A stretch of 35,179 nt of DNA from a virus. The stretch spans positions 1-35,179 of IMG/VR virus record IMGVR_UViG_3300042879_002721; one strand, given 5' to 3'. A model generated the notes under the pieces. That model was not told the DNA's origin and ran no database searches. It was given only the letters and a program-made list of their open reading frames with translations. A program made the position numbers and the translations under genes. Numbering within the stretch: position 1 is the first letter of the stretch; every line of letters starts with the position of its first letter. This document shows, in pieces, positions 1 to 35,179 of this stretch.

Positions 1-204
1 TTGCGACAGAATGGGGTTGCGATGAGAGAACGGTGAGAATGGCCCGAGTCGGGTTGATTAAAAAAGGGTTCTGCACTTTAGTCGAGGATGGGAAAAGGCA
101 GTACTTGACTCCGACTTATAAAGGCGGTTGCGGATCATTCCGATCCGGTCAGGAGGACAAAACCGGATCAAAACGATCCGCGGATCGAAACGATCCGGAT
201 CAAT
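1..204. repeat. Left copy of 204-bp terminal redundancy
   Basis: Bases 1-204 match 34976-35179 except for two substitutions: 128 (T) against 35103 (G), and 148 (G) against 35123 (A). The first is silent in the initiator gene; the second swaps Gly for Asp. An open reading frame passes intact from the right end into the left end. The simplest reading is a circular or circularly permuted genome whose contig overlaps itself. The mismatches suggest population variation or a long-read consensus; a true terminal repeat is less likely but not excluded. Confidence 0.9.
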
Positions 205-947
205 CAGATCCGCAGCGCGGATCATTCCGATCCGCGAGTGCGGATCAAAACGATCCAACCGTACTATATATCAAAAAAGAATGTATTAAGAGAAATGTAT
301 TAAGAGAGACCAAAGAGGGGCTAACGCCCCAGGTCGCTTCGCTCCCTTCGCCTTCGGCTCATTGTGTTTCTGATGAAGTTCAGGAGCAGCTAATCAATCC
401 AGCGTTTGTGTCAGAGCCAACAGCACTCGAAGCCCTCGTTGACCAACTCGTAGCAAAGAAGCTTGCAGAAGCCTCTAGAAGCCTCGCAACAACCACGGGC
501 CATAGTGATACTAGCACCGACCCTATTCAAGGGCAGGAAGGTGGCAAAACGGAGCCTACAGCAGCATCAGTGCCGACTATCACAAAGCCAAAGAGCAGCA
601 AGCCGAAAAAAGCCAAAAGCTACACTCAGTTTTCAGAACATGATTTCTTTTGGCCCGATCACTGGACGGGACGTGGAAGACAAGCTTTGCAAACATGGGT
701 TGAGTACAAGCGCGATACAGGGAAAGCCGTTCTGCTCCAGAGCTATCAGCAAGCAATCAAGAACTTCATCGGGGACGAGTCAGGGTTTGTCCTTGCCGTC
801 GATCACTCAATCGCTAACGCCTATCAAGGATTATTTAAACCCAACGGTAACCAGTTACGGGAGGCTCAGAAGCAGCAACAGCAAACACAAATTGAAAGCA
901 CCGACTGGCACGATCGCTTGGCTGAACTTTTGGCAATGGAGGACTAG
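3..947 (+). CDS. Replication initiator protein (O-like), 3' portion of a gene that starts at 34825
   Basis: This is the C-terminal 314 codons of a protein that begins at 34825; joined across the contig ends it is 365 residues. The junction region reads as a winged helix-turn-helix (the stretch around LATEWGCDERTVRMARVGL), followed by a basic strand and wing ending near YLTPTYKGG. A low-complexity Ser/Asp/Arg/Pro linker follows, encoded by the palindromic repeats at 132-256. After that come a polar linker and a C-terminal domain starting around YTQFSEHDFFWPDHW. The order (DNA-binding domain, in-gene iterons, C-terminal partner-binding region, then a loader gene) is that of lambda O and other theta initiators. 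Here it would bind the palindromes and recruit the loader encoded 3 bp downstream. The function is inferred from architecture; no catalytic motif is expected. An ATG or GTG at 33 or inside the repeat is not the true start. Confidence 0.75.
   Translation, partial: ATEWGCDERTVRMARVGLIKKGFCTLVEDGKRQYLTPTYKGGCGSFRSGQEDKTGSKRSADRNDPDQSDPQRGSFRSASADQNDPTVLYIKKECIKRNVLRETKEGLTPQVASLPSPSAHCVSDEVQEQLINPAFVSEPTALEALVDQLVAKKLAEASRSLATTTGHSDTSTDPIQGQEGGKTEPTAASVPTITKPKSSKPKKAKSYTQFSEHDFFWPDHWTGRGRQALQTWVEYKRDTGKAVLLQSYQQAIKNFIGDESGFVLAVDHSIANAYQGLFKPNGNQLREAQKQQQQTQIESTDWHDRLAELLAMED
132..256. repeat. Six GGATC-N5-GATCC palindromic iterons
   Basis: Copies lie at 132-146, 165-179, 182-196, 197-211, 219-233 and 242-256. 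All twelve GGATC/GATCC half-sites are perfect. The 5-bp centres are ATTCC (twice), AAAAC (twice), GAAAC and AATCA. Start-to-start spacings are 33, 17, 15, 22 and 23 bp. Each copy holds two GATC (Dam) sites, twelve in 125 bp. The first four copies are seen again at the right contig end. Confidence 0.9.
280..307. repeat. Two tandem AT-rich 14-mers (candidate unwinding element)
   Basis: The exact sequence AATGTATTAAGAGA occurs twice back to back (280-293, 294-307) within an AT-rich tract that begins after the last iteron. The position and composition fit a DNA unwinding element next to initiator sites. The repeat is coding (Lys/Glu/Arg-rich), but a 14-bp unit is not a multiple of three, so the two copies are read in different frames. 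DNA-level rather than protein-level conservation is therefore likely. Confidence 0.65.
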
Positions 948-950
948 GAC

Positions 951-1544
951 ATGAACAACAAACAAGTCGAGTTCTTGATCTCTATGCTTCGTGACTGCTT
1001 CCCGACCGCCAAGGGCTATGACAGCCCGACAGTGGTTCAGAGTTGGCACACCATGGGCCTATGCGATCTCTCATTCGACAAGGTGCTTGTAGCGGTTCAG
1101 AAGGGCATCAAAGAGACCCGGTGGGACTATCCGCCGTCAATCAATGACATCCTGAAAAGCTACAACGATTCCATGCCAAAAGTCCCAATGGACTATGAGG
1201 GGCTAGCCGAAAAGTCAGCGGTTAAGAAGGCAATAGACGCAAGGGTGAACAAGAGGTTCCCCTTGATCGACACTAAGCGCCAGTTCAGGGATATCGAGGC
1301 ATACAACGATGCTGTTGCTATTAACGCCGCCCAGCGAACCAAATACACTAACGAACTCTACAAGGAGGTAAAACCAAAGATTCAAGCGCTAATGAACAGC
1401 GGTTTAGGGACGACCAAAATCATCGCTGAAGTGTTTGGCCTGGAGTACGTCCGGCCAACTCACAAGGGGTATTTGGGGCAGAGCACGAAGCAGATCGAAG
1501 ACCTTGCGAACCAACTGGCGAAGAAACTTCCGGGAGGTGCGTAA
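951..1544 (+). CDS. Helicase loader-like protein (G39P/P type)
   Basis: This 197-residue protein has an N-terminal part (about 1-70) that resembles the phage G39P/'loader and inhibitor of G40P' fold: a short helical domain containing the signature-like stretch KETRWDYPPSINDILK, where PP-x-I-x-DI is the family hallmark. Such proteins bind a replicative helicase and deliver it to the origin-bound initiator. The C-terminal part is charged and helical (ALMNSGLGTTKIIAEVFGL near residue 150). The gene follows the initiator by 3 bp with a GGAGG ribosome site at 937-941, so the two are surely co-transcribed. No helicase or primase gene is visible, so the target would be host DnaB. The family match is by eye; the order initiator-loader supports it. 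Confidence 0.6.
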   Translation: MNNKQVEFLISMLRDCFPTAKGYDSPTVVQSWHTMGLCDLSFDKVLVAVQKGIKETRWDYPPSINDILKSYNDSMPKVPMDYEGLAEKSAVKKAIDARVNKRFPLIDTKRQFRDIEAYNDAVAINAAQRTKYTNELYKEVKPKIQALMNSGLGTTKIIAEVFGLEYVRPTHKGYLGQSTKQIEDLANQLAKKLPGGA

Positions 1545-5184: not shown

Positions 5185-5501
5185 GAACCCCAATCATACT
5201 TACTTATATCAGTGGACTAGCCAAAGACGTTGAACACACGGACCTTAAAAAAGTCACAATCGAGGATGTTCCGGTGCTCCTTCGGCTACCACACTCCAAC
5301 TCAATCGGGCTCATCGAGGACGCTTACGGGAGAGCCCCAGACGGCGATCCTTTTACGAGTCGCAAGGAGGCTGAGGAGTGGCTAAAAAGTTGGGTCGGCA
5401 AGGAGATCACGAAGCTACAAGACAAGGTTCGGGAGTACGCGGAAGGGCTTCAAGTAGCGTTAGGGAAGGATGTGGAAAGTATCGATGATGGGGTAGAATG
5501 A
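5181..5501 (+). CDS. Hypothetical protein
   Basis: A 106-residue protein that is not recognised. It overlaps both neighbours by ATGA, so translation is coupled to VRR-NUC and the methyltransferase. The N-terminus is strand-rich (PIILTYISGL), followed by a SRKEAEEWLKSWVGKEI helix and a charged tail. No motif indicates an enzyme. Its position between a nuclease and a methyltransferase suggests DNA processing, with no direct evidence. Confidence 0.75.
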   Translation: MRTPIILTYISGLAKDVEHTDLKKVTIEDVPVLLRLPHSNSIGLIEDAYGRAPDGDPFTSRKEAEEWLKSWVGKEITKLQDKVREYAEGLQVALGKDVESIDDGVE

Positions 5502-6715
5502 AAACAACAGAAACCCCCATCGAATTGATAGTCCCCTACCATCGCAACAACAAAACCCACAGCTCAACGCAGGTGGACAGGATAGCCCGTAGCATCAAGG
5601 AATACGGTTTTAATCAGCCTATCGTGTGCGACAAAGAGGGCGTGATAATCGTAGGCCATGCAAGGTTAGAGGCAGCTAAACAGCTCGGGTTGAAGACTGT
5701 TCCGGTACTAACGGCTACCCTCACAGAGCAGCAAGCGCGGGAGTATCGCATACTCGATAACAAGTTATCCGACCAGGCGGAGTATGACTTTGAGGCGCTC
5801 AACATTGAGCTTGAAGAGCTTCAGATAGACGGGTTTGACTTGGAGGGGTGGGGGCTTGAATTATTTCAAGAAGAAGCGGACATCGAAGAGATAGAAAGCT
5901 CTGAAGACTTCGACCCAGCTCAGGAAGAGTCGCTCTTTGTTAAGGTTGGAGACCAAATAGAGATCGGAAGCCATCGCGTCTTTTGTGGCGATGTTATCGA
6001 CGCACCAGAATGGCTGTTCGGGATGGGAGGTGGATACTGGGATCTTATGGTGACCGATCCTCCCTATGGCGTCAGTTATGTAGGGAAGACGCAGGATGCT
6101 TTGGTTATAGAGAACGACGATCTCGAGGCTGACGAACTAAAGATATTTCTCCAAGAGCGAATGCAGGTGGCGGTAAGGTACGGGACGAAGGGCGCGTCTG
6201 TGTACATGGCGGCCCCGCCGGGGCCGCTGAATGAAATCTTTCAGTCCGTGCTGGGCGAGCTTGGCATTCTTCGTCAAACTCTAATATGGCTAAAAGATAG
6301 CATGGTGATGGGGAGATCTGACTATCACTATAAGCACGAACCTATCTTGTACGGCTGGATGCCTGGTGCTGCGCACAAGCCTGTGATGGATAGGACTAAG
6401 ACGACCGTTTGGGAGTTTGCGCGACCAAAGAAGTCAGAGCAGCACCCGACTATGAAGCCAGTCCCCCTATTCGCAGAGGCTATTCTAAACAGCTCCGTTC
6501 GTGGGGATCTGGTTTTTGATATGTTTCTAGGGTCGGGCACCACGATAATAGCAGCCGAGGAGACGGGGCGGATAGCGTGCGGGTGTGAATTGTCGCCAAG
6601 CTACGCCCAAGGAATAATAATTAGGTACCTAAAGTTTTGTAAGGGCAAGGACAAACCCTTCACTTGCAAGATTAACGGCGAAGACATAACGAGCGAGATG
6701 CTTAATGCCGCCTAA
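5498..6715 (+). CDS. ParB-like domain fused to beta-class DNA methyltransferase
   Basis: A 405-residue two-domain protein. Residues about 8-85 form a ParB/Srx-type domain, with VGHARLEAAKQLGLKTVPV at 52-70. Residues about 145-385 form a SAM-dependent N4-cytosine or N6-adenine methyltransferase: motif IV DPPYGV at 187-192, a HPTMKPVPL segment at 316-324, and motif I FLGSGTT at 343-349. Motif IV before motif I is the beta-class order of CcrM- and RsrI-like enzymes. It probably methylates phage DNA to evade host restriction or to mark replicated DNA; the target base and site are not readable. There is no cognate endonuclease nearby. ATGA overlap upstream; it overlaps terS by 11 bp, a common phage arrangement. 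Confidence 0.92.
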   Translation: MKTTETPIELIVPYHRNNKTHSSTQVDRIARSIKEYGFNQPIVCDKEGVIIVGHARLEAAKQLGLKTVPVLTATLTEQQAREYRILDNKLSDQAEYDFEALNIELEELQIDGFDLEGWGLELFQEEADIEEIESSEDFDPAQEESLFVKVGDQIEIGSHRVFCGDVIDAPEWLFGMGGGYWDLMVTDPPYGVSYVGKTQDALVIENDDLEADELKIFLQERMQVAVRYGTKGASVYMAAPPGPLNEIFQSVLGELGILRQTLIWLKDSMVMGRSDYHYKHEPILYGWMPGAAHKPVMDRTKTTVWEFARPKKSEQHPTMKPVPLFAEAILNSSVRGDLVFDMFLGSGTTIIAAEETGRIACGCELSPSYAQGIIIRYLKFCKGKDKPFTCKINGEDITSEMLNAA

Positions 6716-7106: not shown

Positions 7107-8455
7107 TCATAGCATGGGAGCCTCAGGAAGGTCCACAGGCGGTCGCCTTATATGCGACTCATGTACACGTATTACTTTTTGGTGGGGCTCGTGGTGGTGG
7201 TAAATCGGATTACCTACTAGGCGACTACTATCAGGACGTCTACGAGTATGGGCGCAACTGGCAAGGCATTATGTTTCGGCGGACCTATCCAGAGCTTGAA
7301 GGGCTCATTCAGCGCGGTAAGAGCATGTTTCAAGATGCTGAATGGCTGGAAGGTAAGCGCCAGTTTCAATGGCCCAACGGGGCGATTCTCAAGATGCGAC
7401 ATGCTGAAAATGTGTCAGATGTCAGCAAGTATCAGGGTCATCAATATGGATGGGTAGGCTTCGATGAGATTACGAATCAGAAGGATGAGCAGGTGTTCCG
7501 GCAGCTACTCGCGATTAACCGTTGGGCAGAGTGTGAGCTACCAACTAAGCGCGTGAGGCTATCAGGCAACCCCGGCGGTCCAGGTCACCAGTGGGTTAAA
7601 AAGCTTTTCATCGACCCTAGCCCAGGCGGCTATGAAGTCATTAACGACGGCGACTTTCAGCGGCTATTCATTCCCTCTCGTGTGCAAGACAATCAAATTC
7701 TAATGGACGCAGATCCCCGCTATGTCAAAAACCTCGAGTCTATCGGGAGTGCTGAACTCGTTAAGGCATGGCTCGAAGGTGATTGGAACGTGGTGCTAGG
7801 TTCATACTTCAGCGAGTTTGGAGCGACTAATGTCATAGCTCCGGTTCCCCTTCCCGCTCATTGGATGCGATTCAGGGCTATGGATTGGGGATTCCATGCT
7901 CCTAGTACCTGTTTGTGGATTGCAGTTTCAGATGGCAGTCTTGACGGCATACCAGACGGGGCTCTAGTGGTATACCGAGAGCTACAACGGGCAGGGATGA
8001 CGGCGGAAGAGTTCGCGCTAACAGTTGAGAGCATGACAGCCGAGACTATCGCATATTCAGTGTGCGACCCTTCGATGTTCGCCAAACAAAGTCAAATTGT
8101 CAAAGGCCCATCGCTTGCGGAAGTCTTTCGTGGTCGCGGTATAGCCCTATCGCCCGGCGACAATGAGAGATTGCCTGGTTGGATGCAGATTCGGCAACGC
8201 CTCAAAGCGGGAATGCTACTTATATTTAGCACATGCAAAGAGCTGATTGCAGAGTTACCCCTACTACAACACGACAAACTACACCCTGAGGACCTCGACA
8301 CTACCGGTCAAGACCATTTAGCGGATGCCCTTCGTTACGGGTGCATGAGCCGACCATACATCAAACGCGAGCCAGTCAAGATTAAACCCATTAGAGGGTT
8401 TGGTGACTATAACTACAACGATTTACACAGAAGCATAGAAGGGCAATATGAGTAG
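7103..8455 (+). CDS. Terminase large subunit (TerL), no standard start codon
   Basis: The ATPase-nuclease packaging motor, about 450 residues. Numbered from 7103: Walker A GGARGGGKS 27-35, Walker B around GWVGFDE near 120, the coupling motif LSGNPGGPGHQW near 155-164, then an RNase H-like nuclease with Asp in AMDWGF (about 261), VCDPSMF (about 322) and ADALRYG (about 408). The conserved opening WEPQEGPQ sits at 5-12. The first ATG in frame (7271) would remove Walker A, so it cannot be the real start. The frame is open from 7058, but no ATG, GTG or TTG occurs before 7271. Candidates are ATA 7103 (overlapping the terS stop), ATC 7082, or a -1 frameshift from terS. I list 7103 provisionally. Confidence 0.9.
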   Translation: MVIAWEPQEGPQAVALYATHVHVLLFGGARGGGKSDYLLGDYYQDVYEYGRNWQGIMFRRTYPELEGLIQRGKSMFQDAEWLEGKRQFQWPNGAILKMRHAENVSDVSKYQGHQYGWVGFDEITNQKDEQVFRQLLAINRWAECELPTKRVRLSGNPGGPGHQWVKKLFIDPSPGGYEVINDGDFQRLFIPSRVQDNQILMDADPRYVKNLESIGSAELVKAWLEGDWNVVLGSYFSEFGATNVIAPVPLPAHWMRFRAMDWGFHAPSTCLWIAVSDGSLDGIPDGALVVYRELQRAGMTAEEFALTVESMTAETIAYSVCDPSMFAKQSQIVKGPSLAEVFRGRGIALSPGDNERLPGWMQIRQRLKAGMLLIFSTCKELIAELPLLQHDKLHPEDLDTTGQDHLADALRYGCMSRPYIKREPVKIKPIRGFGDYNYNDLHRSIEGQYE

Positions 8456-10580
8456 TACAGAGCACGAAAACAAGGAATGGGCAACCGAATTAACGGCGGC
8501 ATATAAAAGCCCTAACCGCGAACGCTTCCTACTGCAAGCCAAAAAGGCATGGAGCGCCTACGATGCGGGAGCCAAGGAAGGCGCGAGGAAGTCAGGCGAC
8601 AGCAGGGACTACGCTATATTCTGGTCTACGATAGAAACGAAGCTACCGTATATATTCTCAAACATCCCTACTCCGAGAACCCGTAGAACAGGAGCAGCAA
8701 GTAATCCCATTGATGCCAAGGCTTGCTTTATCTCCGAGGCTTTGATGGAATTGCAGGTAGAAGGGCAAGATTGCGAGTACATCTTTGAGGAGGTGGTTAA
8801 GAGCTACCTTATTACCGGCCTAGGCCAGCTATGGGTACGCTACGAGCCAACCATCAGCGTGGACCCGAGTGGGCAGACGGAGGTAGCCCGTGAGGCGGTC
8901 CGGTTTGATAGCGTGCACTATGATGACTTCCTCTTTCCAGATGTTCGCAGCTGGTCAGATGTTGAATGGGTAGCACGTCGCATATTCCTGACTGGCGAGG
9001 ACATCAAAGAGCGGTTCAAGGTCAGCGGTGAGCAGATCGACAAAATGACTTTCAAGACCGGTAACCGTGACGGCGAGACCATCGGCGTTATGAACCTCAT
9101 GGGCAAGGACGACTTGCAGACTACCGCTATATGGGAGGTGTGGTGCAAGCGTAGTCGGTCGGTGTACTTCTTCTCAGGCGATGAGTTTGACGTGATGTTG
9201 ACCACCAAGCGACCGTTAGACCCGGTGCGCTTCCGTGGCTTCTTCCCTTGCCCTCGCCCCCTACTTGGCACGACTGGCACGGATACCCTATGGCCGATAC
9301 CTAACCATGTGTATACGGCTACGAGCGAGGAGACCATACAGGCCAGTAAGAAGACTCAGAGAGCTCTAGTCCGTAAGGCTATGCCGAAAGCCCTATTAAA
9401 CGGCGAGTTTGGCGACGAGCTTAAGAAACTATGGAATGCTAACGAACCAATAGGGCAGGTGCTTGAGAACTGGATCCAATTCGTCAATAAAGGCGGATTC
9501 CAGGGCAACGTAGCATACAGCCCAGTTGAGGAGTACATCAAGGCAGCCCAGACGATGAGCCAACAGATTCAAGAGGAGCTGAACAGCTACTGGGAGCTAT
9601 GCGGCATTACGGATTTGATGCGAGGTATTGCAGACCCGATGAACGCGGCAGCCACTAACCAGATGATCAGCGACCACGGAGACACAAGGACAGAGCGAAT
9701 CGTTAAGAAGGTGGCTATATTCTTTAAGCAGGCATACGGCTGCATGTATGATGTGATATGCGACGTGTTCAGCCCACAATCTATGATACGGGATAGCGGC
9801 GGGGACATGAACGATCCGAACGCTCAGCAAGCCGTGATGTTGCTCAAAAATGAAGGGCAAAGGCTATTCCGGGTAGCTATCGAGACAGGGACTACCCTCG
9901 CAAGCAATAGCGGAACTAATCTCGCCAAGTCTACCGAGATGTTTAACGTGTTGGGCCAAGTCCTAACACTTGCCCTCCAAACCGCCGAAAAGGCTCCTTC
10001 CTACGCTCAGGCTATGCACTCGCTCATCATGCACACAGTACGCAGCATGAGCGAAGGTCGCAAGATTGAGGAGGAGCTAGAACAGGCGTTCTTGCAAGGC
10101 TTAGAACAGGCCAAACAAGGCCAAGAGCAAGCCATGCAAGCCCAACAGGCCCAACAACAGCAAGAGCAGCAAATGGCCCAGATGCAGCAACAGATGCAAG
10201 AGTACCAGATGCAGATTCAGAGCAGGGAAACGGGCGTTAATGAGTTCGAAGCGCAGATTAAGCAGTTTATTGCACAGTCTAATGCACAAATTGAACAGCT
10301 TAAGCTACAGATTGAACAGGCTACGGCAGGGCAAAAAGCACAATCCGATGCAACTACAGCTCAGATGACGGCCCAGAAAGCACAAACCGAAGTAGCTAAA
10401 GCTCAGGCTGATATGATGTCAGCCCAACAACGGGTAGAATTCGAGGCAGCTAAGGCAAGCCGTGAGCTGGACATTAAAGAAGGCCAGGTACTAGCAGATA
10501 CGCAGCTCAAAAAGCAGGAGCTAGAGGACAAGCGGATTGTGAATACCGCGGAGCTGTTGACTACGGGGGAAGTGAGGTAG
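8448..10580 (+). CDS. Portal protein (P22-like)
   Basis: A 710-residue protein of P22 gp1-type size and layout. It has the helical N-terminus, the SRDYAIFWSTIETKLPYIFS stretch, a WVRYEP core strand, the VHYDDFLFPDVRSWSDVEWV segment typical of this portal family, and a long stem/clip region. Residues about 550-700 are a Gln/Ala/Glu-rich coiled coil (QAQQAQQQQEQQMAQMQQ), comparable to the P22 barrel. Twelve copies would form the vertex through which TerL pumps DNA. It overlaps terL by 8 bp, with a GAAGGG ribosome site. Large podoviral portals of this kind argue for a short-tailed virion. Confidence 0.88.
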   Translation: MSSTEHENKEWATELTAAYKSPNRERFLLQAKKAWSAYDAGAKEGARKSGDSRDYAIFWSTIETKLPYIFSNIPTPRTRRTGAASNPIDAKACFISEALMELQVEGQDCEYIFEEVVKSYLITGLGQLWVRYEPTISVDPSGQTEVAREAVRFDSVHYDDFLFPDVRSWSDVEWVARRIFLTGEDIKERFKVSGEQIDKMTFKTGNRDGETIGVMNLMGKDDLQTTAIWEVWCKRSRSVYFFSGDEFDVMLTTKRPLDPVRFRGFFPCPRPLLGTTGTDTLWPIPNHVYTATSEETIQASKKTQRALVRKAMPKALLNGEFGDELKKLWNANEPIGQVLENWIQFVNKGGFQGNVAYSPVEEYIKAAQTMSQQIQEELNSYWELCGITDLMRGIADPMNAAATNQMISDHGDTRTERIVKKVAIFFKQAYGCMYDVICDVFSPQSMIRDSGGDMNDPNAQQAVMLLKNEGQRLFRVAIETGTTLASNSGTNLAKSTEMFNVLGQVLTLALQTAEKAPSYAQAMHSLIMHTVRSMSEGRKIEEELEQAFLQGLEQAKQGQEQAMQAQQAQQQQEQQMAQMQQQMQEYQMQIQSRETGVNEFEAQIKQFIAQSNAQIEQLKLQIEQATAGQKAQSDATTAQMTAQKAQTEVAKAQADMMSAQQRVEFEAAKASRELDIKEGQVLADTQLKKQELEDKRIVNTAELLTTGEVR

Positions 10581-10585
10581 CCGAC

Positions 10586-10660
10586 ATGGACCACACACTA
10601 ATGATCATCGTCGGATTATTAGTGATGTGGGTGGCATATGAGAATTGGGAGGGCAAATAA
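10586..10660 (+). CDS. 24-residue predicted membrane peptide
   Basis: A tiny frame of 24 codons between portal and the next gene. It encodes a peptide with one hydrophobic helix (LMIIVGLLVMWVAY) followed by a charged end (ENWEGK). It begins 6 bp after the portal stop, with GTGAGG upstream as a possible ribosome site, and its stop overlaps the next ATG by one base (TAATG), which suggests coupled translation. Function is unknown; a membrane-associated virion or lysis-related peptide is possible. The size makes the call tentative. Confidence 0.55.
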   Translation: MDHTLMIIVGLLVMWVAYENWEGK

Positions 10661-10998
10661 TGGCACGCTACAGATATGATAAAGATACCGGCAGAATGTA
10701 CGAGGTGGGCGATCCGCAGCACAACCGACGGATACACATCATTAACGACAATGCAGACAGCGAGGGCAAGGGCTACCTATGGCATCCTGCGTTTGATGAG
10801 CATGAGCAGCATAAGGCGTATTTTAGCAGCAAGTCCAAGTTTCGAGCAGAGACCAAAGCGCGCGGCTTCGAGGAAACCGGGACTGGTAGAGATCCGGACA
10901 AGGAACGGCGGTACAGAGATAACACGAAGGAAGTACAAAGCAAGATGCGAGAGGCTATCATAAGGCACGTCAAATCACTCAATTTAAGGAATCCATAG
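10660..10998 (+). CDS. Hypothetical protein, basic
   Basis: A 112-residue protein started at ATG 10660 (GGGAGGG ribosome site), not the upstream TTG at 10645. It is soluble, rich in Arg, Lys and Asp, with YRYDKDTGRMYEVGDPQHNR at the N-terminus and a conserved-looking WHPAFDEHEQHKAYF centre. The C-terminus is helical. It is not recognised as a known family. The position between portal and scaffold suggests a head-assembly or minor virion role. Confidence 0.7.
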   Translation: MARYRYDKDTGRMYEVGDPQHNRRIHIINDNADSEGKGYLWHPAFDEHEQHKAYFSSKSKFRAETKARGFEETGTGRDPDKERRYRDNTKEVQSKMREAIIRHVKSLNLRNP

Positions 10999-10999
10999 T

Positions 11000-12163
11000 A
11001 TGGACGGCATAGAAATAGGCGCACCGGCAGAGACCACTACAGAGGCGCCACAGGTCAGCGAAAGTAAGAGCTTGAACGACAAGATTGCGAATGTGGTAAA
11101 AGCTCGCGTAAAGGAGTTTAGCGACGATGCCTCTAAGGAAGAGGTAAAGCCGGTAGTCTCAGAGACCATAACAAAGCCCGAGGCTGAAAAAACTGAGAAG
11201 GTAGCGCCGAAGGAGGTGAAAAAGGCGGAACCTATAGTAGCTAAGGATGAGAAACCCGAGGTAGTTAAGGCTCCAGCATCATGGACTAAAGAGGAAAAGG
11301 CGGCATTCGAGAAGCTCCCTCCCGATCTAAAGTCAGTGGTGCATAAAAGAGAGCTAGAGCGAGACGGATACCTAACTACTCAAGGTCGAGAAGTCGCAAA
11401 GCTAACGAAAGTGGTCGAGAGCAGCAAGGAGGCCATCGAGGCGCATGAGTACGTTAAGCAGGTAGCAGAAAAGAGCGGAGCCCCTACCACTCGGCACTTT
11501 ATCGAGCGCATGGTTGAGGCACAAGAGCAATCAGTACGCGATCCAGTGGGTTTTGTCGCAAGGATAACCGACCAGAACCCTATCGGCTTCGTAAAGGCAC
11601 TAATGCAAAGGTACGACATCGATGTTAGGCAACTTGCAGCCGGTAGGGACGACCTAGCATTTGACATCCAGACGCATCAACAACAAGCAGAGATGCAGCG
11701 GATCCAGCGGGAGAATGCTGAAATGCGGCAATACTTCGAGAATCAAAGGCTGCAGCAAGAACAAGCCCAGGTCAGCCAACAGCAACAACAGTATGATCAG
11801 GCGGTGGGCTCTATCGCCGATGCTATGGAGCAGTTTTACGGCGAGAAGAGCGAAGGGGAGAGAGAAGCTGCAACGCCATACCTTGAACACGCCGTTCGGG
11901 TAGTGGTGGCAGAAGCTGGTCAAAAGGGCGAGCAAATCAATTCCTACGGAGAGCTAATCCGTAGGGCGCACGCTAAGGCCCTAAGGCTTAACGACTCCTA
12001 CAATCCCCCGCTACCCCAAAGGGCGGACTATGCAAGCAGTCGGGCGGTTAGCCCACACAGTAGAGGCGGATCAGCTACGGGAGTACCGACGAGCAAGCCG
12101 TCTGGTAGCTTCAACGACATGGTAGCCCAGATCGCCAGAAACAATTTACGAAAGTACTCGTAA
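11000..12163 (+). CDS. Scaffolding-like protein
   Basis: A 387-residue protein. The N-terminal third is low-complexity and Lys/Glu/Pro/Val-rich (disordered). A SWTKEEKAAFEKLPPDLKSVV segment near 93-113 and a long helical region follow. Residues about 225-275 are a Gln-rich coiled coil. The last 30 residues are basic (IARNNLRKYS). A helical, disordered, charged protein ending in a basic helix, located between portal and capsid, matches phage scaffolds, whose C-terminal basic helix binds the capsid protein. Assignment rests on position and composition. Confidence 0.65.
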   Translation: MDGIEIGAPAETTTEAPQVSESKSLNDKIANVVKARVKEFSDDASKEEVKPVVSETITKPEAEKTEKVAPKEVKKAEPIVAKDEKPEVVKAPASWTKEEKAAFEKLPPDLKSVVHKRELERDGYLTTQGREVAKLTKVVESSKEAIEAHEYVKQVAEKSGAPTTRHFIERMVEAQEQSVRDPVGFVARITDQNPIGFVKALMQRYDIDVRQLAAGRDDLAFDIQTHQQQAEMQRIQRENAEMRQYFENQRLQQEQAQVSQQQQQYDQAVGSIADAMEQFYGEKSEGEREAATPYLEHAVRVVVAEAGQKGEQINSYGELIRRAHAKALRLNDSYNPPLPQRADYASSRAVSPHSRGGSATGVPTSKPSGSFNDMVAQIARNNLRKYS

Positions 12164-12357
12164 AAGGTATTGACAGTTATGCGTGATTTATGCGTCAATA
12201 AAAGCAAAGGCGCATAACTCGCAATCAATATATACAGTGGCAGCTACGACCGTACCCCAGCCACTTAAAACAAACGTAGTCCGGAACAGCTGGATCTTTC
12301 CACCTCAGTTATCGGATTAAAAATACTATTTTTTAATCTTTATAACGAGGCAACATC
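12164..12357 (+). promoter_or_regulatory. Leader region of the capsid gene with TTATGCG repeats
   Basis: This 194-bp gap upstream of the major capsid gene holds a consensus -35 (TTGACA, 12170-12175) but no convincing -10 at 16-18 bp. TTATGCGT occurs twice in direct orientation (12177-12184, 12188-12195; 11-bp period), and its inverse CGCATAA lies at 12211-12217. TATATA at 12229-12234 is an alternative -10 without a good -35. It is probably a capsid promoter with an activator or repressor site. Confidence 0.45.
12315..12338 (+). other. AT-rich hairpin just upstream of the capsid ribosome site
   Basis: GATTAAAAA (12315-12323) and TTTTTAATC (12330-12338) form a perfect 9-bp stem with a 6-nt loop. 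It sits 19 bp before the capsid ATG. It is too AT-rich for a strong terminator; a 5' mRNA stabiliser is possible. Confidence 0.4.
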
Positions 12358-13338
12358 ATGGCAGATCCGAACCTCTCCCAGATGACCTCAGCGACGTTTG
12401 AAGACGTCACTAAGGTCGTTTATGACAACTTCACAAACAACAACCCACTACTAGGCGAACTCAAGAAAAAAGGAAACATTACCGAGGATTACACCGGTGG
12501 TGAATATATCCGACAAACCCTTGCATACGCCGAAAACAGCACCTACACGCACTACAGAGGCGCGGAAAGGCTTAACATCTCCGAAGTTTCTATCCTTTCA
12601 GCAGCCAAGTTCGACATCAAGCAAGTAGCCCTTTCCGTGACCATGAACGGGCTTGAAGAAGTGATGAACGCTGGTGAGGCCAAGCTGATTGACTTGTTCC
12701 AGACCAAATCAATGGTCCTCAAAGGCACCTTTGAAAACAACTTCGAAGCAGACCTTTTCTCGGCAGGAACGGCATCAGGCGGTAAGCAAATCGGCGGCTT
12801 GCAATCCCTAGTAGCAGATACCCCAACGAGCGGTACAGTAGGCGGAATTAACGCAGCTACGTACAGTTGGTGGAGAAACGTTTCTTATGACGCGTCTTCA
12901 GACGGGGGCGCAGCTACATCGGCCACAAACATCAAGACCTACCTTGATGCAGTGATGAGGCAAGTCCGACGAGGTCAGGACCTCCCCGATTTCTTAATTG
13001 CTGATAATAACTATTACGCTTTTTACGAGACCTACCTAAGCGGCCTACAAAGAATCACCGACGGCGGGTCTGGAAAGGCTCAAGGCTCAGGCGCGGATGA
13101 GTTGACCTACAAAGGCCGACGATTCGTTCTAGGCGGCGGCCGTAACGGTTCAGTACCTACGGACCACGTTTACTTCCTGAATACCGACTATATCAAGCTA
13201 AAAGAAGCCAAAGGGCGAAAGCTAAAGATGCGCGAAGCAGTCAAGGCGATCGATCAGGATGCTGAAGTGAGCTTGGCACTATGGGCCGGTAACCTCGTGT
13301 TGCCAAACAGATTTGTGCACGCTGTGCTTAAAGCTTAA
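12358..13338 (+). CDS. Major capsid protein
   Basis: A 326-residue protein with HK97-fold features: an N-terminal helical arm, then EDYTGGEYIRQTLAYAENST, a spine helix (EAKLIDLFQTKSMVLKGTFE), the IGGLQSLVADTP turn often seen in this phage capsid family, and a closing RFVHAVL strand. Some 415 copies would build a T=7 shell. Placement after the scaffold and before a decoration-like protein, the isolated leader with a strong -35, and a terminator after the next gene all fit the most highly expressed virion protein. The ribosome site is CGAGG. No protease gene is nearby and no prohead cleavage is implied. Confidence 0.88.
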   Translation: MADPNLSQMTSATFEDVTKVVYDNFTNNNPLLGELKKKGNITEDYTGGEYIRQTLAYAENSTYTHYRGAERLNISEVSILSAAKFDIKQVALSVTMNGLEEVMNAGEAKLIDLFQTKSMVLKGTFENNFEADLFSAGTASGGKQIGGLQSLVADTPTSGTVGGINAATYSWWRNVSYDASSDGGAATSATNIKTYLDAVMRQVRRGQDLPDFLIADNNYYAFYETYLSGLQRITDGGSGKAQGSGADELTYKGRRFVLGGGRNGSVPTDHVYFLNTDYIKLKEAKGRKLKMREAVKAIDQDAEVSLALWAGNLVLPNRFVHAVLKA

Positions 13339-31431: not shown

Positions 31432-32238
31432 TTATGCGGCGCATCCCTGCTCTATTTGCTGCGCCTCTAGCGCGTCATTCAAATCGGCAAGAACGCTATA
31501 CTGCAACTTGCTATCCGTAACCTCGTTTAGCCTCTTAAGGCTATACCGAGCTTTGATTTCGTTTGCGACATCAACCGGGTTCACAAGGGCCTTTAAGATT
31601 TCGTTTGCAGCCTTGACATACTCAGCTTGGGCGCTCCGGTCCAACGGTTCGGCCTCTACTGCGGGCGCAACATCAGGAAGAGCTGGTAAGGCAGGAGTCT
31701 TGTCGAGCTTTGCGGCTTTCCGTGGCGGAGTCGAAGCAAATTCACCTTCAATAACATCCACCATTTCCTCCGGCGAATACATGCCGTGCAAACAGCCCGG
31801 GTATATAGTCCGAACACCCTCAGAGATACACCGAGACCGTTTCATGGCGGCCCCAAACTTGTGGTGCAAGTTGCCAAGTCCAGCAGCCTTAACGCGCTCA
31901 TCGTCCCATGTGATAGTCACCGATCCGCCTTTCGGGTGAGTAAACTTGATAGTCACCTTTCTATCTGTATACTCCTGCACCTCTATCACCCCGTCAGCAG
32001 CTTGGAAGTTGGCTAGCATCACCTCGGCTTTTAAAGTTGGTACTGCGTTGCCCTTGAACTCCATCATGTGATACCGACGTGTCGCCGTCATCGGATGAAG
32101 CCCTTCGGCTTGTGCCAGGAGCATCAGCGATGCGGCCTTTTGTTTCGTATCAATACCTGGGAACATCTTTGACTCTGCGACGTAAACAGCCATTTTTTCA
32201 ACGTCGTTAAGTGGTATTGTTGGTAAATTGTTGCTCAT
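31432..32238 (-). CDS. RecT-like single-strand annealing protein
   Basis: A 268-residue protein. The first 165 residues show the pattern I know from a large phage group annotated as RecT-like annealing proteins: LLAQAEGLHPMTATRRYHMM, GNAVPTLKAEVMLANFQAA, WDDERVKAAGL, then KRSRCISEGVRTIYPG and MYSPEEMVDV. A Pro/Ala/Glu linker follows, then a helical tail. Such proteins anneal complementary single strands in phage recombination and replication; usually an exonuclease gene is nearby. None is recognised here, though SSB and VRR-NUC are encoded elsewhere. GGGGG ribosome site; the gene ends before a clear terminator. Confidence 0.75.
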   Translation of the reverse strand: MSNNLPTIPLNDVEKMAVYVAESKMFPGIDTKQKAASLMLLAQAEGLHPMTATRRYHMMEFKGNAVPTLKAEVMLANFQAADGVIEVQEYTDRKVTIKFTHPKGGSVTITWDDERVKAAGLGNLHHKFGAAMKRSRCISEGVRTIYPGCLHGMYSPEEMVDVIEGEFASTPPRKAAKLDKTPALPALPDVAPAVEAEPLDRSAQAEYVKAANEILKALVNPVDVANEIKARYSLKRLNEVTDSKLQYSVLADLNDALEAQQIEQGCAA

Positions 32239-32248
32239 ATTATTCCCC

Positions 32249-32785
32249 CTATTTTATTCTTAAACTCTTCCCCTCAACTGGCTTCATGTATGCCCAGTCG
32301 CATGTTTCCCCTTCCGGTAGCTCTTTCAGATACTTCGCTATCTCGTTCAACTTCGGGTCGTAGCTCACTTTCTGGAATTGGATCGGAACTGATTCTTCAA
32401 GCGGAATAACCAGCTTATCTTTCTTCTTAGCGAGCGACAATTTAACAAACTGCCCGTCAATCTTTTCACGTCCGCTAATCTGCATGTTGCGTATTAGGTA
32501 CTTCTCAAGTCTCTCAGCCTTGTTTTCTGCGTCGCGGGCGTACTGAGCTACCCGCTGAGACTCCTTTCTTGCAGCTTCCGCAGTGGCTTCAAGCACCTTT
32601 ATATACCGCGCGACCGACTCGGCTTTCACGTCGAACTCGTATCCCATCTCGCTCATGACACCGAACAAATCGCTTATCCGCCTATCTTTCTCCTCGTCCG
32701 AAAGGCTCGAATCGTCAACAACCCGATCGTAGCCCTCTATCAGTTTTTGCAGATCCTCACCTAACATCCAAAGTGTGTTGTTCAT
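32249..32785 (-). CDS. Siphovirus Gp157-like protein
   Basis: A 178-residue helical protein. The pattern of the Gp157 family is visible: an N-terminal helix with LQKLIEGYDRVVDD, a long central coiled coil (YIKVLEATAEAARKESQRVA, AENKAERLEKYLIRNM), and a short beta C-terminus (VKLSLAKKKDKLVI, then VPIQFQKV). The family lies beside recombination genes in many phages and has been linked to resistance against other phages in one streptococcal system; its biochemistry is not settled. It overlaps the upstream gene by ATGA. Confidence 0.85.
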   Translation of the reverse strand: MNNTLWMLGEDLQKLIEGYDRVVDDSSLSDEEKDRRISDLFGVMSEMGYEFDVKAESVARYIKVLEATAEAARKESQRVAQYARDAENKAERLEKYLIRNMQISGREKIDGQFVKLSLAKKKDKLVIPLEESVPIQFQKVSYDPKLNEIAKYLKELPEGETCDWAYMKPVEGKSLRIK

Positions 32786-34824: not shown

Positions 34825-35179
34825 ATGACAAAGAAGAATGAAAAAAGAAAGCCATTTTTCGCGAATATCAATGAGGACGAATTTGATTTACTAACTAGGT
34901 TTGAAGGTAAGTACTTAATCAGGGTCCGGGCATTTTCGGCGATGGATCTGTACATGACCTACACTCATAAGCAGCTTGCGACAGAATGGGGTTGCGATGA
35001 GAGAACGGTGAGAATGGCCCGAGTCGGGTTGATTAAAAAAGGGTTCTGCACTTTAGTCGAGGATGGGAAAAGGCAGTACTTGACTCCGACTTATAAAGGC
35101 GGGTGCGGATCATTCCGATCCGATCAGGAGGACAAAACCGGATCAAAACGATCCGCGGATCGAAACGATCCGGATCAAT
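34825..35179 (+). CDS. Replication initiator protein (O-like), 5' portion; continues at base 3
   Basis: The true N-terminal part of the initiator, starting ATG 34825 and running to the contig end (118 codons). The first 61 codons are unique to this end; the rest repeats the left end in frame. The N-terminus is polar (KKNEKRKPFFANINEDEFDL), followed by the helix LTRFEGKYLIRVRAFSAMDL and the winged-helix recognition region around THKQLATEWGCDERTVRMAR. The Asp codon at 35122-35124 is Gly in the left copy. It belongs to the rightward operon of the ribbon-helix-helix regulator, past a terminator, so readthrough or a promoter near 34802 is needed. Confidence 0.8.
   Translation, partial: MTKKNEKRKPFFANINEDEFDLLTRFEGKYLIRVRAFSAMDLYMTYTHKQLATEWGCDERTVRMARVGLIKKGFCTLVEDGKRQYLTPTYKGGCGSFRSDQEDKTGSKRSADRNDPDQ
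34976..35179. repeat. Right copy of 204-bp terminal redundancy
   Basis: Pairs with 1-204; differs at 35103 (G for T) and 35123 (A for G). It includes the first four origin palindromes. Confidence 0.9.

Follow-up and report, generated by a model that had tools for sequence, protein, structure and literature searches.

A predicted lambda-type replication origin within the initiator gene of a podovirus-like phage, and a possible recognition code among O-like winged-helix initiators

The sequence studied is one IMG/VR virus record of 35,179 bp, referred to below as the window. Its last 204 nt (34976-35179) repeat the first 204 (1-204) with 202/204 identity; both mismatches, T128G and G148A, fall outside the palindrome cores described below. 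Judged by these ends, the genome is either closed or circularly permuted, at about 34,975 bp, with two close variants present at the join. It should be noted that the record is not classed in IMG/VR as having end repeats, even though the genome closes through this overlap. Because the ends overlap, the initiator gene spans the junction, running from its start codon at 34825 to 947, and position 1 of the window falls in the middle of this gene. Joining the ends gives a single gene of 365 codons, and the 365-residue protein proposed in an earlier, sequence-only reading of this DNA is thus borne out. Features of the locus are collected in Table 1.

Table 1. Features of the initiator locus and its surroundings (window coordinates)
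Feature	Position	Strand	Remarks
O-like initiator, first third (start codon, winged helix, three iterons)	34825..35179	+	overlap; wHTH fold predicted; 34976-35179 repeats 1-204
O-like initiator, remainder (365 aa in total after circle closure)	1..947	+	phrog_678, E 5.5e-12
Predicted recognition helix codons, residues 59-72, ERTVRMARVGLIKK	24..65 (also 34999-35040)	+	DSSP of model
Iteron 1, GGATC-ATTCC-GATCC	132..146	+	
Iteron 2, GGATC-AAAAC-GATCC	165..179	+	
Iteron 3, GGATC-GAAAC-GATCC	182..196	+	
Iteron 4, GGATC-AATCA-GATCC	197..211	+	
Iteron 5, GGATC-ATTCC-GATCC	219..233	+	
Iteron 6, GGATC-AAAAC-GATCC	242..256	+	
AT-rich, purine-rich candidate unwinding region	257..316	+	least stable 50-mer within; ACTATATATC at 263-272 shared with L005
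Tandem 14-mer, copy 1, AATGTATTAAGAGA	280..293	+	
Tandem 14-mer, copy 2, AATGTATTAAGAGA	294..307	+	exact duplicate
Small GC hairpin, GGGGC-TAAC-GCCCC	317..330	+	right after AT-rich stretch; kept in L005; weak by shuffles, 5/50
Helicase-loader gene	951..1544	+	phrog_2289, E 1.1e-6; 70% identical in L005

The phage is podovirus-like as far as its head genes indicate: weak P22-like portal and terminase signals occur at 7271-13338, and the capsid protein is 25-39% identical to those of the Bradyrhizobium phage ppBjS10J-1, the Stenotrophomonas phage BUCT555 and the Myxococcus phage Mx8. The region 31432-32785, on the minus strand, encodes a RecT-like annealing protein (weak, E 2e-4) adjoining a Mu Gam-like end-protection protein (E 9e-22). 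The sign of the GC skew switches close to the initiator locus, a signal confounded with gene direction.

Six perfect GGATC-N5-GATCC palindromes lie within the initiator gene itself (132-256), as in origins of the lambda O type, and by sequence they are, again as in that type, inverted repeats suited to dimers. The six palindromes and the two tandem 14-mers at 280-307 agree with what the sequence-only reading had described. No perfect GGATCN5GATCC occurs elsewhere in the genome, the copies at 35107, 35140 and 35157 being the terminal overlap read a second time. When the gene was recoded synonymously with the protein held fixed, the 20,000 trials averaged 0.16 sites and never exceeded 3, where the gene has 6; for perfect 5-5-5 palindromes, of which the stretch has 7, its dinucleotide shuffles averaged 0.35 and peaked at 4. 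Moreover, the six sites divide evenly between two codon phases, one encoding GSFRS, GSKRS and GSFRS and the other DRNDP, DQSDP and DQNDP, so that the repeat is conserved as DNA and not as peptide. The recoding result, the excess over shuffles and the two codon phases together indicate that selection acts on the DNA.

These data bear directly on the idea that the repeats are simply a repetitive peptide linker, with the DNA palindromes as a by-product of coding. The repeats do encode a low-complexity segment which, given its low model confidence (pLDDT about 41-51), is probably a disordered linker. Since the same palindrome yields two different peptides in two phases, and recoding never produced more than 3 sites, we regard the probability of this explanation as negligible.

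The initiator matches PHROG 678, 'replication initiation O-like', with E 5.5e-12 over residues 41-358; lambda O itself matches the same profile at 1.7e-35. No Pfam family is matched up to E 1, including Phage_rep_O (PF04492), which lambda O matches at 5.7e-36. The protein is thus O-like, yet lies outside the narrow Pfam family. An AlphaFold2 model built with ten related sequences contains a fairly confident winged helix at residues 21-90 (mean pLDDT 77-91 per ten-residue block), with the iteron-encoded tail modeled at low confidence. Sequence searches of solved structures returned nothing useful. The next gene matches PHROG 2289, 'helicase loader'. The sequence-only reading had called this loader G39P-like; the assignment as a phage helicase loader holds, whereas the Pfam model Inhibitor_G39P (PF11417) found no match, nor did it match any control genome.

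The stretch directly after the palindromes is the weakest of the genome: none of the 34,975 50-mers is less stable than the one starting at 261 (nearest-neighbour energy, z 3.96), which opens with ACTATATATC, and an AT-rich region directly beside the iterons is likewise a feature of lambda O-type origins. The two 14-mers within it, placed 14 nt apart, also occupy two codon phases. Tandem repeats with periods of 11-15 follow the iterons in L099, L126, L078 and the L036/L049/L069/L032 family as well (0/60 shuffles reach them), and AGAGA is enriched after the iterons of the L126 family (2.6 per 70 nt versus 0.13 elsewhere in the gene). Because tandem repeats stand at the same place in several relatives, the window 14-mers look like one instance of a recurrent element, although the 14-mer unit itself is not conserved in the relative L005. 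Units of 11-15 nt ending in AGAGA or AAAAG (TACTACAGAGA, TACCATTAAAAG, GATAACAAAGA) were seen after the last iteron in the L126 family, the L036 family, L099 and L078; such units possibly provide a single-strand binding register comparable to DnaA-trios. GC hairpins similar to that of the window (gtcgggCAAGcccgac) follow the repeats in L128, L131 and L084, a 10-bp stem is found in L126, and the counterpart position in lambda reads gtcagag-N14-ctctgac. As a general origin part, a downstream hairpin was considered and set aside as weak, only 10/48 relatives reaching at most 2/50 shuffles.

INPHARED (50,697 phage records) contains neither a relative of the window initiator or of that of L005 nor similar DNA, and no relatives were found in bacterial genomes. 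The most telling relative is L005. The two initiators are 48% identical overall and nearly identical over the last ~110 residues, and the loaders are 70% identical. The winged helix of L005, however, is different, and at the position of the window iterons it carries TTCATTA-N8-TAATGAA palindromes, after which ACTATATATC is kept. In L099, which is more distantly related, this place is taken by TTGCA-N9-TGCAA repeats. Thus, between the window and L005 (one pair in the subfamily) the N-terminus and iterons are exchanged together, while the C-terminus and loader stay; by sequence, this is the module swap expected of modular initiators. A natural swap of N-terminus plus origin is known for the RepA_N chimera pPR9 (PMC5703833), and origin and RepA_N modules covary in PLEs (PMC8263062). 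The absence of any repeat at this position in relatives, which the sequence-only reading had named as one of the results that would speak against an origin, is not what we find, since L005 has other palindromes there; the co-variation of iterons and winged helix that it proposed to look for is present in L005 and, residue by residue, in the L126 family discussed below.

Taken as a whole, the locus is very probably where theta-type replication of this podovirus-like phage begins, laid out on the lambda O plan, with dimer binding, unwinding and loader recruitment as predicted steps. By its architecture we classify it with high confidence as an ordinary lambda-type in-gene origin, in a little-known phage. 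That dimers bind, that the AT-rich stretch unwinds and that the steps come in the order given here is inferred by analogy with lambda. The N-terminal winged helix, presumably as a dimer, would bind each of the six palindromes, with one subunit per GATCC half-site; as half-site centres are 10 bp apart, both recognition helices would lie on one face of the double helix. Together, the dimers on the six sites would then strain the adjacent AT-rich stretch (about 257-316), which would open. The conserved C-terminal domain, reached via the iteron-encoded linker, would recruit the loader (951-1544), and the loader would deliver a host DnaB-type helicase.

Winged-helix proteins that sit on palindromes are typically repressors, and a fold search with the model returned mostly MarR/ArsR-type regulators and generic winged helices, with the Rep-DNA structure 5kbj at rank 49. 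On these grounds the palindromes could be operators used by the protein to repress its own gene or an early operon, replication starting elsewhere. The sites, however, are confined to the middle of this one gene, relatives whose palindromes are unrelated in sequence carry them at the same position, and no 50-mer of the genome is weaker than the one next to the sites; furthermore, the O-like match extends over both domains and a loader gene follows. We therefore assign the operator explanation a very low probability.

The 125-bp iteron cluster holds 12 of the 140 GATC sites of the genome, and the variant G148A creates one more beside iteron 1. A DNA methyltransferase (PF01555) with an N-terminal ParB domain (PF02195) is encoded at 5498-6715, in this genome with a GATC-rich origin. 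The site density and this enzyme would suit a cluster that is chiefly an element for GATC methylation or sequestration, as in SeqA-controlled origins, with palindromy secondary. Yet GATC is missing from the arms of L005 and of most members of the related family (TGCTC, TGTTC, GTATC, TACCC), so that GATC is one arm sequence among many, and a primary role in methylation appears very improbable. Methylation could nevertheless tune binding at the window iterons.

Lambda iterons are described as almost perfect inverted repeats to which O binds as a dimer (PMC5043065, PMC7466680), in contrast to plasmid iterons, which are mostly direct repeats (PMC5043065). They read TCCCTC-AAAAC-GAGGGA, that is, a 5-5-5 core of CCCTC-AAAAC-GAGGG to be set beside the window's GGATC-AAAAC-GATCC. 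In both origins the iterons are inverted repeats placed centrally in the initiator gene and followed immediately by a purine-rich AT region and then by the loader gene (P in lambda). The Stx phages P27 and 933W have six iterons, as does the window. The two systems differ in that the arm sequences are unlike, PF04492 is matched by lambda O alone, the proteins are only remotely alike, and the window loader matches phrog_2289. Palindromic geometry was accordingly rejected as a novelty, since lambda has 5-5-5 inverted repeats too. In the sequence-only reading, the in-gene origin with an O-like initiator, an adjoining AT-rich region and a loader gene next to it is supported; its contrast between palindromic iterons and lambda fails.

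A second group comprises the O-like/DnaD-like initiators of the Staphylococcus and Bacillus phages SpT152, 42E and vB_BhaS-171 and of IMG/VR contig 2667527875_000003 (L126; phrog_6493). As in the window, these have a winged helix and tandem repeats after the palindromes; these palindromes also lie in the gene, and their 5-5-5 layout centres on an A-tract (GTATC-AAAAT-GATAC, TGGTC-AAAAT-GACCA, and GGATC in L126/L127). The order of initiator then loader is shared with the Staphylococcus phages, where a DnaB gene follows. The window protein belongs to another winged-helix subfamily, and L126-type genes differ from it in the arm-reading residues. In phage SPP1, the origin-binding protein G38P is followed by the small helicase loader G39P, and origin boxes are within the gene; the window has this gene order and a predicted in-gene origin as well, and PF11417, silent in the controls too, gave no match in the window. 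RepA_N plasmid initiators (pSK41, pTZ6162) and the PLE RepA combine a wHTH N-terminus, a linker-encoded origin and a host-specific C-terminus, and their origins have inverted repeats converging on a poly-A tract (PMC5703833, PMC7145576, PMC8263062). The window initiator, for its part, has no Pfam match to RepA_N (PF06970), and its likeness to 5kbj is only at the level of any winged helix.

Nor is the arm sequence new. IMG/VR was scanned for two GGATC-N5-GATCC palindromes within 30 nt, which returned 91 stretches; 23 of them, on 23 other contigs, have at least two AT-rich spacers. All but two of these AT-spacer arrays (21/23) are inside recognisable winged-helix initiator-like ORFs, the exceptions being L066, in which the sequence ends before the helix, and L063, which has no clear ORF. 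PHROG 678 is matched by 15 of the 19 AT-spacer records tested, and L023 and L026 match other initiator PHROGs. By contrast, 0/7 control records with other GGATC repeats match phrog_678, and 9-bp periodic GGATCN5GATCC matches (L024, L044, L056 and similar) were rejected as origins. GGATC arrays in the initiator genes of many unrelated phages make this a recurrent arm sequence, and the iterons can no longer be called novel-looking, as they had been at first.

A comparison of initiator residues with iteron arms covered 88 genes, made up of 80 viral loci collected with a profile of L126-type initiators and eight others. Matching palindromes numbered at least 2 in 73/88 genes, and 48 were kept at <95% identity. 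Of the alignment columns that precede the iteron-coded part (88 in all), those for residues 71 and 68 tell most about the arm, and both residues belong to the recognition helix (positions 5 and 2, respectively, of helix 67-80 in the L126 model). In the 48 initiators, K at residue 71 goes with G at arm base 1 in 12/13 cases, R with T in 28/30 and I with T in 3/3. Across L126-L205, about 330-440 nt into each gene, residue 71 (K, R or I) is seen to track the outer iteron base. On a tree built without the helix columns, R changed to K at least four times, each time with a T-to-G change in the arm. The best of 352 column-base tests on the tree pairs residue 71 with arm base 2 (6/6 co-changes, P 1.1e-6; two arm calls, L158 and L121, were amended after visual inspection of the raw sites). 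Position 68 has strong mutual information with arm base 3 but no co-change on the tree (P 0.77); for this reason, only position 71 is claimed with phylogeny.

The K-R pattern with P, A or G ahead of the T also accompanies GGATC in other families (L036, L026, L078, L023, L037 and L084). The window helix, D-E-R-T-V-R-M, departs from the K-gives-G rule of this larger family. A helix resembling it, D-T-R-R-I-R-I, occurs in L009/L052, which also have six GGATC palindromes; D-x-R-x-[VI]-R-[MI] with GGATC is thus a sample of two lineages (the window and L009/L052), and no close relatives of L009 were found beyond L009 itself and L052. From these alignments it may be proposed that O-like winged-helix initiators read in-gene palindromes by a simple, transferable code in which a few helix positions set the outer arm bases, and that unrelated phages reached GGATC through at least two helices, [P/A/G]-T-[VI]-K-R and D-x-R-x-[VI]-R-[MI]. 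We put the chances of this proposal at about even. No published statement of such a code was found in the literature searched, which mostly excluded subscription papers.

Taken alone, the locus is a further clear lambda-type origin, and the lesson from its relatives is, in our opinion, more interesting than the locus itself. A K/R switch at one residue that predicts the outer iteron base makes origin specificity among O-like initiators directly testable. If the proposed code is true, the protein by itself could be enough to predict the origin that it recognizes and, with it, whether phages are compatible in replication.
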